29,549 bases of DNA from an uncultured delta proteobacterium (GTDB lineage: Bacteria; RBG-13-61-14; DRUE01), in the NCBI GenBank assembly GCA_903930515.1, contig CAIYYW010000228.1, forward strand, positions 1-29,549, in the 5' to 3' direction. The position numbers and the translations under genes were made by a program. Below, piece by piece: positions 8,192-12,028 of this stretch; the stretch's first letter is position 1, and the number at the start of each line of letters is the position of its first letter. Under the pieces are notes generated by a model. It searched no databases, was not told the DNA's origin, and was given only the letters and a program-made list of their open reading frames with translations.

Positions 8192-8974
8192 CTAGATTTC
8201 CAATACTCTTTGAATCCGCTCGATGGATTTCGCTTTTCCGGTTTCGTCATCAATCTCCAAAGCCACCGCGTTGATCTGGACCGGCCCGGCCGCCACCTCA
8301 AACCGGTGCGGGATCCCGGTGACGAACCTATCCAGGGCCTGGCTGGACTTGATCCCGATCACCGACTCGCGCGGTCCGCACATTCCCACATCCGTGAGAT
8401 AGGCGGTTCCTCCCTGAAGGATTCGCTCGTCCGCGGTCTGAACATGGCTGTGAGTACCGATCACAGCCGAGACCCTTCCGTCCAGGTATAGACCGATCGC
8501 GACTTTTTCGCTGGTGGCCTCGGCGTGGAAATCCACCAGCTTCACCTTGATCTCGGACGGGAGCGACTCCAAAACCTGGTCCGCAATCAGGAACGGATTT
8601 TCCGCGGGGGCCATAAAAACTCGTCCGGAAAGGTTGATGATCGCGACCGGGCCGCGCTCGGTCTTGAGCAAAAGGGTTCCGTGTCCCGGGGCTTTTTCCG
8701 AAAAATTGGCCGGCCGGACCAGCCGGTCCAGGTCATTGATTTCCTGGACCAGTTCCTTCTTGTCCCAGATATGATTTCCGGAAGTCATAAAATCAATCCC
8801 GGATTCCAGGAGCTGCTGGTAAATCTCCTTGGTCAGGCCGAAGCCTCCCGCGGCGTTTTCCACATTGGCGCCCACCAGCTCGGACCGGTATTTCCCGATC
8901 AGTTCCGGCAGGATTCTGCCAATGCCTTTGCGGCCGGGCTTGCCTTCAATGTCTCCGAAAAATAAAATTTTCAA
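8192..8974 (-). CDS. ymdB: YmdB-family metallophosphoesterase (2',3'-cyclic nucleotide phosphodiesterase)
   Basis: This 260-residue protein matches the YmdB/TIGR00282 family of calcineurin-like phosphoesterases in length and in all metal motifs. They are GDIEGKPGR (residues 7-15), the NVENAAGG loop near 38, SGNHIWDK near 65, DFHAEATSEK near 148 and GTHSHVQTAD near 173. The B. subtilis homologue hydrolyses 2',3'-cAMP and affects RNA levels and biofilm/motility decisions; Deinococcus DR1281 is also related. Its start lies 16 nt after the rny stop, so the two should be co-expressed. The rny-ymdB order is widespread in bacteria that use RNase Y. Overall it is a typical intact member. Confidence 0.92.
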   Translation of the reverse strand: MKILFFGDIEGKPGRKGIGRILPELIGKYRSELVGANVENAAGGFGLTKEIYQQLLESGIDFMTSGNHIWDKKELVQEINDLDRLVRPANFSEKAPGHGTLLLKTERGPVAIINLSGRVFMAPAENPFLIADQVLESLPSEIKVKLVDFHAEATSEKVAIGLYLDGRVSAVIGTHSHVQTADERILQGGTAYLTDVGMCGPRESVIGIKSSQALDRFVTGIPHRFEVAAGPVQINAVALEIDDETGKAKSIERIQRVLEI

Positions 8975-8990
8975 TGGTCTTTCCTTTGCT

Positions 8991-10553
8991 TTACTTGGCG
9001 AAATCCACGGCCCGGGTTTCCCGGATCACCACCACCTTGATCTGGCCGGGATAGGCCAGGTCGGTTTCAATCTTCTTGGCGATCTCGCGCGCGAGCACGG
9101 TGCTTCCCTCGTCCGTGACCTTGTCGGCTTCCACCATAATCCGGAGTTCCCTTCCGGCCTGGATCGCGAAGCTGCGGTTGACCCCGCTAAAGCTCAGCGC
9201 TATTTTTTCCAGGTCGTCCAGACGCTTCACATAAGTCTCAATCATCTCCCGCCGGGCCCCGGGCCGCGCCCCGCTCAGGGCGTCCGCGGCCTGGATGATG
9301 TTGGCGAGCACGGTCGTGGGGCCGTCATCGTGATGGCTGGCGACCGCGATCACGATCTCGGGGCTTTCCCCGTATTTCTTGGCCAGCTCCCCGCCCACCT
9401 GCGCGTGCGGACCTTCCTGCTCGTGGTCCACCCCCTTGCCGATGTCGTGGAGCATCCCGGCCCGCTTCGCCCGCTTAACATTCTGGTCCAGCTCCCCCGC
9501 GATCACCCCGGCCAAAAAAGCCACTTCCATTGAATGCTGGTATTGGTTCTGGCCGTAGCTGGTCCGGTATTTTAATCGTCCCACCAGCCGCACCAGTTCC
9601 GGGTTGATCCCGTGCGCCCCCACATCAAACACCGCGCGCTGTCCCGCCTCCTTGATCGCGTCGTCAACTTCCTTCTCCGCCTTCTTCACCATCTCCTCAA
9701 TCCGGGCCGGGTGAATCCTCCCGTCCGAGATCAGATGCTCAAGCGAAATCCGCGCCACCTCCCGCCGGATCGGGTTGAAGCTGGAAATCACCACCGCCTC
9801 CGGGGTGTCGTCCACGATCAGGTCCACCCCGGTCGCGGCCTCCAAAGCCCGGATGTTCCTGCCCTCCCGGCCGATGATCCTCCCCTTCATCTCGTCGTTG
9901 GGAAGAGGGATCACCGTGACCGTGCATTCCGCAACATATTCCCCCGCGTACCGGCCGATCGCCTGGGAAAGAATCCGCTTGGAATTCTTTTCCGCCTCCG
10001 CCTTCGCCTCGTCCTCAATCTGCTTGATCCGGATCGCGGCCTCGTGCTTGGCCTCGTCCGCCATCGCGTCCATCAGCAGTTTCTTGGCGTCCGCCGAACT
10101 GATCCCGGCCACCTGCTCCAGCTTCCGGGTGATCCCCGCGGATTTTTCCTCAATCTCCTTTTCCAGACGGTTGATCTTTTCTTCCTGGCCCAGGATCTTC
10201 TTCTCCCGCCGGGTCAGATCCAATTCCTTCTGATCCATCAGATCAACCTTCTTGTCCAGGGTCCCTTCCCGCTGCCGCAGCCGCTCCTCGCGCTGGTTCA
10301 CCTCCTGCTTGACCACCTTGCTCTCTTTTTCAAACTCGCTCCGGGCCTGGTACAAATAATCCTTCGCCGAAACCTCCGCTTCCTTCAGCCGGGTCTCGGC
10401 CCCACGTTTCGTCTGATCCAGCAATTCCTGGATCCGGGCCTCCGCCTCTTTCCGACGCGAACGCAGGCCGAGTTGGACCGCCAGGAACCCTAATCCGGCG
10501 CCCACCAGGAGCCCGGCCAGGCTGATCAAAATCGTCATCAGAACATTATTCAT
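8991..10553 (-). CDS. rny: Ribonuclease Y
   Basis: RNase Y is the membrane-anchored endoribonuclease that starts mRNA decay in many bacteria lacking RNase E. The 520-residue protein has the canonical order. It runs from an N-terminal membrane helix (about 5-27) through a long charged coiled coil (about 30-195) to a KH domain with [15 protein letters not shown] near 225. An HD domain then contains [16 protein letters not shown] near 368 and ASHHDDGP, followed by the conserved C-terminal domain ending with [16 protein letters not shown]-like sequence. All motifs are intact. It starts 15 nt after the 5-formyl-THF cyclo-ligase stop, with a purine-rich GGGGG/AAGGAAA leader. It is followed by ymdB after 16 nt. 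Confidence 0.96.
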
Positions 10554-10568
10554 TTTCCTTTCCCCCTT

Positions 10569-11180
10569 TTATCTGCAATCCGGCTCGGGACTTAACTTGA
10601 TAAATCCCTGCTCGGTAACCAACCGCTTCACGCTTTGATCGCGCTCATCAGCGGGCAAAGCCTCCCGGACCTGGAACATATAAGCAAACCCGACCGTGAT
10701 CGCCAGGGGCTTCAGCCCGGGCAAAATCCGGTCATAATATCCGCCTCCGAGCCCGAGCCGGTATCCGCGGCGGTCAAAAGCCACGCCCGGAACCACCACC
10801 AGGTCCAGCTCCGGGAGCGCGAGTTCTTCCGACTCCGGCCCCGGCTCCAGGATCCCGAAGCGGTTCGGCCGCATCTTCCGGTAATCATCCACCTTGAGAA
10901 AAATCATTTTCCCCGATCCGATGACCCTGGGGAAGGCCGGAATTTTTCCCTCCTGCAAAGCCCGCTCAAAGACCAGTCGGGTGTCAACCTCGTTATTAAA
11001 AGCGGCGTACAGGGCGATCCGGAGGGAAGATAGGTAGCAGAGCGAGCCGAGGAGATGCATCTGCGCCCACTCGCTCCATTTGCGGGAAAGGGCGGGCGCA
11101 ACCTCCCCCCTGAGTTTTAGCAACTCAAAGCGCAAATCCTTTTTTCGGGCTTTAAAATCAGCTTCCATTCCCTGGTCCAT
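10569..11180 (-). CDS. fau: 5-formyltetrahydrofolate cyclo-ligase
   Basis: The enzyme (ygfA/MTHFS family) converts 5-formyl-THF to 5,10-methenyl-THF using ATP, returning a storage folate to the one-carbon pool. The 203-residue length fits. The signature GYRLGLGGGYYDR, preceded by DLVVVPGVAFDRRG, is complete. The N-terminal half has the Lys/Arg-rich KKDLR segment and a VDTRLVFERAL-type motif. The start is uncertain: ATG at 11180 (chosen) or ATG at 11168 (MEAD). Neither has a good Shine-Dalgarno, and the first ATG directly abuts the terminal stem of the structured RNA, so the second may be real. The gene order zapA, RNA, cyclo-ligase matches the well-known zapA-ssrS-ygfA arrangement. Confidence 0.92.
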   Translation of the reverse strand: MDQGMEADFKARKKDLRFELLKLRGEVAPALSRKWSEWAQMHLLGSLCYLSSLRIALYAAFNNEVDTRLVFERALQEGKIPAFPRVIGSGKMIFLKVDDYRKMRPNRFGILEPGPESEELALPELDLVVVPGVAFDRRGYRLGLGGGYYDRILPGLKPLAITVGFAYMFQVREALPADERDQSVKRLVTEQGFIKLSPEPDCR

Positions 11181-11409
11181 GGATTTGCGGAAGCCGAGGG
11201 GGAAAATTTAGGGATTAAACCGAGCGAATAAGTAAAGGACTGATTTCAACCCCGCCGGAGTCTGGAAACCAGCCGCCGCCCTGAAGCCTGCCTTCAGGGT
11301 CAACTCTCAAGCCTTCTTTACCTTTGCCGCTCATAAAGATATTGCGAACTCCTTCGTAATCTTTAAATATCTTTTCCCTTATTCCCTCAAATTTTCTTTC
11401 CGCAAATCC
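11181..11409 (-). ncRNA. ssrS: Structured RNA, candidate 6S RNA (ssrS)
   Basis: The zapA-cyclo-ligase gap can fold on the minus strand into a closed, branched RNA of about 229 nt. The outer stem is a perfect 12-bp pairing of 11409-11398 (GGATTTGCGGAA) with 11192-11181. Inside it, 11396-11389 (GAAAATTT) pairs perfectly with 11209-11202, and 11388-11378 pairs with 11232-11222 (10 of 11 bp). An alternative AGGGA/TCCCT pairing (11387-11383 with 11214-11210) competes with part of the latter. Three internal hairpins follow: 11374-11366/11343-11335 (9 bp, with an inner CGAA-GGAG-TTCG), 11299-11292/11286-11279 (8 bp) and 11272-11269/11265-11262 (4 bp). Location between zapA and ygfA is the established 6S RNA position in many bacteria. 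6S RNA binds the housekeeping RNA polymerase. The multi-hairpin interior is less simple than the textbook 6S bubble, so another RNA class remains possible. Confidence 0.6.
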
Positions 11410-11424
11410 TTTTTTAATATTCTC

Positions 11425-11712
11425 TCACAATTCTACCATTTTTTCAAGTATTGCCAACTTCCTGACCACCCGCTCCAGCCGATCCTGAATTTCGCGCTCC
11501 TCTTTTCCGGATTCCAACTGGAGCTGGTAAATCTCTTCCGCAAAATTGATCGCCAGCGCGAACATCCGGGAAGGGTCCAGCAGCCTCGGTTCCGGGCCGA
11601 ACAATTCCTTCATCCGCTGGTCCACCGATTTCGCCACCGCCTGGATTTCCTCCCCGCTCGTCCCCCGCAGGGTGTATTTCTTTCCGTAGATTTCCACCTC
11701 AGTCTCAATCAT
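11425..11712 (-). CDS. zapA: Cell division protein ZapA
   Basis: ZapA binds FtsZ and bundles its filaments at the division site. The 95-residue length is normal. The N-terminal globular part starts VEIYGKKYTLRG, which matches the family pattern for the first beta-hairpin. It continues into the conserved VDQRMKEL helix (around 31-38) and the ALAINFAEEIYQL helix. A C-terminal helix rich in Glu/Arg/Leu would form the dimeric coiled coil. The ATG at 11712 lies inside the 3' end of the upstream coiled-coil gene (8-nt overlap), so translation is probably coupled. The stop TGA at 11427-11425 is followed in the same frame by 69 further sense codons (see the structured RNA). Confidence 0.9.
   Translation of the reverse strand: MIETEVEIYGKKYTLRGTSGEEIQAVAKSVDQRMKELFGPEPRLLDPSRMFALAINFAEEIYQLQLESGKEEREIQDRLERVVRKLAILEKMVEL
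11430..11457 (-). promoter_or_regulatory. Promoter for the structured RNA, inside the zapA end
   Basis: On the minus strand TTGGCA (11457-11452) and TAGAAT (11435-11430) are separated by 16 nt. The predicted start is about 11423, a few nt past the zapA stop and about 14 nt ahead of the perfect outer stem of the structured RNA. The spacing fits independent transcription of the RNA and possibly of the cyclo-ligase gene behind it. Confidence 0.5.
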
Positions 11713-12028
11713 CCAGCTTGACCTCCTCCAATCCCTTGATCAAAACCTCAATCCGATTCGCGGTATCCCGGCGGAACCGTTTCTCCCTGGACAATTCATT
11801 CTCCAGGCCCCGGGCCTTGGACTGAAGCTCGCCTAGTTTGGTCTGCTCCCCTTTCAAGGATTCCTCTTTTTCCAAACGGCTTCTTTCCAGACCCCCCTCC
11901 AGCTCCTGGACCTTCTTCTGCAAAGACAAGGCCTGCTCCCCCGCCTGCTTAACCGCTCCCATCTTTTCCGCCACCGCCTCCAGCCGCTTCTCCAGTTCTT
12001 CAAGCTTTACTCTAAGGGTATCGTTCAT
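11705..12028 (-). CDS. Small coiled-coil protein, ZapB-like candidate
   Basis: This 107-residue, highly charged protein is predicted to be almost one continuous coiled coil: heptad-like Leu/Val/Ile spacing with Glu, Lys, Arg and Gln between, and few helix breakers. It opens MNDTLRVKLEELEKRLEAV and ends in IKGLEEVKLDD. It overlaps zapA by 8 nt and is its only upstream partner. By analogy with ZapB, the small coiled-coil partner of ZapA in gammaproteobacteria, a divisome role is a reasonable inference. Coiled coils are hard to assign by sequence, and no ZapB homology is claimed. The predicted promoter lies so close to the ATG that the mRNA may be leaderless, and no Shine-Dalgarno is seen. Confidence 0.75.
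   Translation of the reverse strand: MNDTLRVKLEELEKRLEAVAEKMGAVKQAGEQALSLQKKVQELEGGLERSRLEKEESLKGEQTKLGELQSKARGLENELSREKRFRRDTANRIEVLIKGLEEVKLDD

Follow-up and report, generated by a model that had tools for sequence, protein, structure and literature searches.

Introduction

The zapA-ssrS-ygfA array is the classic, documented neighbourhood of 6S RNA, and in E. coli 6S is a processed, trans-acting RNA that is co-transcribed with ygfA (PMC7641849). The molecule folds as a rod with a central bulge (PMC4227106). The Ms1 RNA of actinobacteria, which binds core RNA polymerase, is 6S-like with a different sequence and came to light through its gene neighbourhood, not its sequence (PMC9130861). In Streptococcus, and only there, the gene for 5-formyltetrahydrofolate cyclo-ligase is preceded by the fthC motif, a short leader in which three hairpins are combined with an upstream ORF and an intrinsic terminator (Narunsky et al. 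2024, PMC11109978).

Here, we describe a 229-nt element in a stretch of 29,549 nt of DNA from an uncultured delta proteobacterium (the window), which carries the array zapA - RNA - fthC - rny - ymdB at 8192-12028. Like 6S RNA (ssrS, RF00013), the element occupies the niche between zapA and the cyclo-ligase gene, is closed by a long stem and is preceded by a sigma70-type promoter at the end of zapA; unlike 6S, it has no covariance-model match, measures 229 nt and is predicted to be branched. It shares with the Streptococcus fthC motif its place before a cyclo-ligase gene, but lacks both the terminator and a conserved upstream ORF. Ms1 differs in belonging to another phylum. A search of the open-access literature found neither the element nor its counterparts in the same gap described.

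Results

A structured element in the zapA-fthC gap

The predicted minimum free energy of the element is −87.1 kcal/mol, as compared with −65.8 ± 4.7 kcal/mol for 200 dinucleotide shuffles, none of which is as stable (z = −4.55). The perfect 12-bp end-to-end stem reported in the original prediction (P1) is present as described, as are the internal hairpins, including a perfect 8-bp one (Table 1). Within P1, the predicted fold branches into a hairpin (H1) and a forked arm (H2). A conformational switch that had been proposed between AGGGA/TCCCT and GAGGGAATAAG/CTTATTCGCTC is not supported by the predicted ensemble, in which the former helix has a probability of ∼0.08 and the latter of 0, and CGCTC pairs with GAGCG at a probability of 1.0. 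The statement that the RNA exactly fills the gap holds approximately, as zapA and the element are 15 nt apart, and the element and fthC 12 nt apart when the latter starts at 11168. This ATG, rather than that at 11180, is probably the true start, since the N-terminus then aligns with the start in a relative of the same genus (G001; see below).

Table 1. Features of the zapA-fthC region, in coordinates of the window.
Feature	Coordinates	Strand	Evidence or remarks
Structured RNA element, 229 nt	11181..11409	-	Fold z −4.55; consensus fold with G001; homologue in G001 by sequence, z 11
P1 closing stem, 5′ strand GGATTTGCGGAA	11398..11409	-	Fold; first 10 pairs identical in G001
P1 closing stem, 3′ strand TTCCGCAAATCC	11181..11192	-	12 nt upstream of likely fthC start; overlaps possible ribosome-site hairpin
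Hairpin H1 (AAAGATT..GAAG..TTCG..AATATCTTT)	11334..11365	-	Fold; consensus hairpin there has 2 two-sided changes
Forked arm H2, closed by GAGCG/CGCTC and AGGUAAAG/CUUUACUU	11222..11332	-	Probability 1.0 for GAGCG/CGCTC; two-sided changes in consensus
Inner hairpin CCCTGAAG/CTTCAGGG, perfect 8 bp	11279..11299	-	Sequence, fold and consensus
Possible alternative hairpin over fthC ribosome site and start, re-using P1 3′ strand	11158..11197	-	−15.9 kcal/mol; z −2.3 or −1.2 by stretch taken
zapA	11425..11712	-	Pfam PF05164, E 2.7e-13
fthC, 5-formyltetrahydrofolate cyclo-ligase	10569..11168	-	Pfam PF01812, E 2.9e-36; start revised from 11180, aligned with G001
rny (RNase Y), downstream of fthC in the operon-like array	8991..10553	-	Pfam PF12072, E 1.5e-47
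Sigma70-type promoter, TTGGCA-16-TAGAAT	11430..11457	-	TG before the −10; inside 3′ end of zapA

Folding does not tell the strands apart, as a strong fold is likewise predicted for the reverse complement of the element (z = −4.31); we favour the minus strand from the promoter and the direction of the genes. The TTGGCA-16-TAGAAT promoter that had been predicted was recovered as one of two promoter-like sites where 0.4 are expected, and it scores 10/12 with an extended −10. It is not conserved at the corresponding place in G001. No intrinsic terminator was found between the element and fthC in either the window or G001. Searches of both strands of the window against Rfam at gathering and permissive thresholds gave no match. 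A repeat or mobile element was rejected as an explanation, as no second copy was found in the genome of the window.

Conservation in a relative of the same genus

The genome collection holds one relative of the same genus (G001, 87% complete) and one at the level of the order (G002); the next share only the domain. In G001, zapA and fthC flank a gap of 265 nt in the same order as in the window, and the two gaps align well above background (z = 11) at 55% identity, which is below the DNA identity of zapA (68%) and fthC (60-70%). A consensus fold computed on the plain sequence alignment has 43 pairs, of which eight are changed on both sides and none is broken. The first 10 pairs of P1 are identical. 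The compensatory changes whose absence would have counted against the original prediction are present in the one relative available. Compared with column shuffles, the consensus fold has a z score of −3.6 with standard scoring and −5.2 with ribosum scoring, and none of 200 shuffles is as good; six coding windows from zapA, fthC and rny of both genomes, analysed as controls, gave values from +2.1 to −1.6. The consensus fold of the reverse complement is at least as significant (z = −6.8/−6.1). A LocARNA-like structural alignment contains 27 two-sided changes but also many gaps, and the plain sequence alignment was therefore preferred for covariation. The fold of the element is real and conserved in the genus of the window. 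In both genomes, the conserved structured RNA lies directly upstream of fthC, at a distance of 12-13 nt, and runs in the same direction.

The element is not a recognisable 6S RNA

The flanking genes, recognised by the Pfam families ZapA and 5-FTHF_cyc-lig, reproduce the 6S neighbourhood. However, the 6S covariance model RF00013 found no match at E ≤ 10 in the window's gap with permissive filters. The same model recovers 6S in 21 of 41 genomes, including G002, in which the gene lies in the same gap, 12 nt after zapA, at 85.3 bits and served as a positive control. An alignment of the element with this 6S does not rise above shuffles (z = 0.76). 6S RNAs form centrally bulged rods of about 180-200 nt, whereas the 229-nt element is predicted to be branched. 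RF00013 likewise found no match at E ≤ 10 anywhere in the whole genomes of the window (G000) and of G001, both of which are metagenome-assembled genomes whose unassembled parts may hold a 6S gene. It seems from these searches that the genus lacks a recognisable 6S, and that the gap holds something else.

Other RNAs of the zapA-fthC gap

In the order-mate G002, the gap contains, in addition to the true 6S, another structured stretch of ∼370 nt between 6S and fthC (L019:1133-1506), the fold of which is somewhat above shuffles (z = −2.3). The window element does not align with this stretch above shuffles. Other phyla show the same fthC-rny order, there with 6S immediately preceding fthC (L002, L005).

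Three further groups carry conserved RNAs in this gap. In the Desulfuromonadales (L094-L183), an element of ∼290 nt is closed by a covarying stem (for example, TCTCTGTA/TACAGAGA and GATAGA/TCTATC), and in the genomes tested the 6S gene lies elsewhere; a hairpin of this element overlaps the fthC start. A comparable element in the Geobacterales (L210-L244) is marked by GGTCTCT..GGGAGA...CTGATAGGTAGCC, with invariant TCTCT..GGGAGA and CTGATA(G)GTAGCC-like blocks. A covariance model of its 5′ domain, run on 98 genomes of the class, found 19 copies, each the only one in its genome and each immediately before fthC. In the phylum of G007 (L003, L245-L273), a second conserved structured RNA of ∼330 nt, in which a GAGCGGAAC/GUUUCGUUUU hairpin was observed, is situated between 6S and fthC. 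The consensus folds of all three are significant (z = −6.6, −4.3 and −7.8, respectively), and the gap sequences tested from these groups gave no Rfam match except 6S.

These RNAs resemble the window element in their position upstream of fthC-rny, in a length of about 230-360 nt, in a significant conserved fold and in having no Rfam match while not being 6S. They differ from it in sequence, as profile searches in either direction detected no similarity, and those of the G007 phylum and G002 come after a 6S gene. Cross-matches among the profiles of the three groups are at most very weak. Because the profiles miss the window element and barely match one another, we do not claim the gap RNAs as one family; that they, the G002 tail and the window element descend from a single ancient, undescribed family that stands beside or replaces 6S and controls fthC-rny is a tentative idea that we regard as rather unlikely.

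Discussion

A possible cis-acting leader of fthC

We propose that the element, a structured RNA not yet catalogued, serves as the 5′ leader of fthC-rny-ymdB and most likely acts in cis, a reading to which we assign a probability of about 0.48. Transcription would begin at the promoter in the 3′ end of zapA and proceed through the element into fthC, and then into rny and ymdB. One strand, TTCCGCAAATCC, would be contested between P1 and a hairpin that covers the ribosome site of fthC, such that a stabiliser of the folded element, be it RNase Y, some other protein or a metabolite of the folate pathway, would make the ribosome site accessible, whereas loss of the stabiliser would close it.

In the window, G001 and the Desulfuromonadales, the 3′ strand of the closing stem is predicted to be able to pair locally around the fthC ribosome site. 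When the 5′ strand of P1 is blocked in the window model, the ribosome-site hairpin forms and the Shine-Dalgarno bases become paired, at a cost of about 5 kcal/mol. In the G001 model, the ribosome site is paired with or without P1. The overlap between P1 and the ribosome-site hairpin, assessed against shuffles of the downstream sequence, is not significant (p = 0.07 for the window, 0.09 for G001 and 0.5 for G002). In the Desulfuromonadales, bases of the closing strand re-pair locally near the fthC start in 91% of 55 elements, compared with 44% of shuffles. The overlap has the layout that a translational leader switch would have, with modest statistics, and the identity of 10 P1 pairs in both genomes would be expected if the strand has two partners. 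The 5′ strand of P1 also recurs inside fthC as an exact 13-15-nt repeat on the minus strand (AAAAAAGGATTTGCG, at 11131-11145 and 11401-11415). This repeat was considered as a second switch partner and rejected, since G001 lacks it and the folded model shows no pairing between it and the 3′ strand of P1.

A leader acting in cis is thus suggested by the stability of the fold, its covariation with G001, the lack of a match to 6S or any other Rfam family, the effect of blocking P1, the single-copy Geobacterales elements attached to fthC and the excess of local re-pairing in the Desulfuromonadales. Against it stand a family of its own that comprises two sequences in these data (window and G001), the p values of the overlap, a neighbourhood in which the 6S of E. 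coli is processed and acts in trans, a promoter not conserved in G001, and a reverse strand that folds equally well. The modest statistics and the G001 ribosome site that is predicted to be paired either way are the reasons why we hold this reading at a little under even odds.

Alternative explanations

The main and a serious rival, though one that we consider somewhat unlikely, is a free-standing RNA of ∼230 nt that acts in trans, has a promoter of its own, is released from the fthC transcript by cleavage, and occupies the 6S niche while belonging to another family; such an RNA would perhaps act on RNA polymerase in the manner of 6S or Ms1. It would account for the promoter with its extended −10, for the location and for a large compact fold with closed ends, and it has parallels in the second structured RNAs that adjoin a real 6S in G002 and the G007 phylum and in the Desulfuromonadales gap RNA that coexists with a 6S gene elsewhere in the genome. 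However, neither a terminator nor a conserved processing site is seen, the 12-13 nt between the closing stem and fthC in the window and in G001 leave little spacer for a separate gene, and the Geobacterales counterparts found by the model are always attached to fthC. The view that the element is instead 6S itself, highly divergent and elaborated by a forked apical arm and one additional hairpin, is improbable. It draws on the neighbourhood, on a closing stem and long arm that loosely resemble the 6S topology, and on the expectation that a genus without a recognisable 6S elsewhere may have one in this gap, but it must contend with the absence of any RF00013 match, with the failure to align with the readily recognised 6S of the order-mate, and with the length and branching of the element. 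The original assignment as a probable divergent 6S RNA is not supported, and its second option, a new RNA class in the same niche, is supported by the conserved fold and the compensatory changes in G001.

An RNA on the plus strand, antisense to the zapA-fthC operon and ending in the closing stem followed by a T-run, appears marginally less probable still. The strong fold and consensus of the reverse complement fit this arrangement, as does the TTTTTT that follows the closing stem on that strand (ATTTTT in G001); against it, no plus-strand promoter was found, no terminator hairpin lies directly before the T-run, and the direction of zapA is shared by both flanking genes and by the 6S copies known from this niche. 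We regard it as very improbable that the conserved unit is a gene for a small protein of 39 codons, with its ATG at 11334, or for a leader peptide. The frame is open, G001 has a matching ATGAG start, and AAGGAG occurs about 15 nt upstream in both genomes, but this spacing is too long for the Shine-Dalgarno-like site, and the peptides (MSGKGKEGLRVDPEGRLQ... and MRGKGERERRNGPASRF...) align only in M-x-G-K-G. With no codon-level conservation between the 39-aa frame of the window and the 41-aa frame of G001, the small ORF was rejected as an explanation; base pairs are kept where the frame is not kept as protein, the pattern expected of an RNA.

Implications

The observation of a structured RNA in the gap is confirmed; its reading as 6S is not supported, and that as a new RNA is supported, as far as two sequences allow. 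Location in the zapA-fthC gap is therefore not enough to identify a conserved structured RNA as 6S. In the Geobacterales, the Desulfuromonadales and further lineages, this gap is occupied by other conserved RNAs that Rfam 15 does not contain, and the occurrence of several uncatalogued conserved RNAs besides 6S in one gap is the more interesting result. Regulation of fthC-rny by these RNAs, if it occurs, would place folate recycling and an enzyme central to RNA decay under RNA control, and the groups that carry them include cultivable, genetically tractable members in which this can be tested directly.
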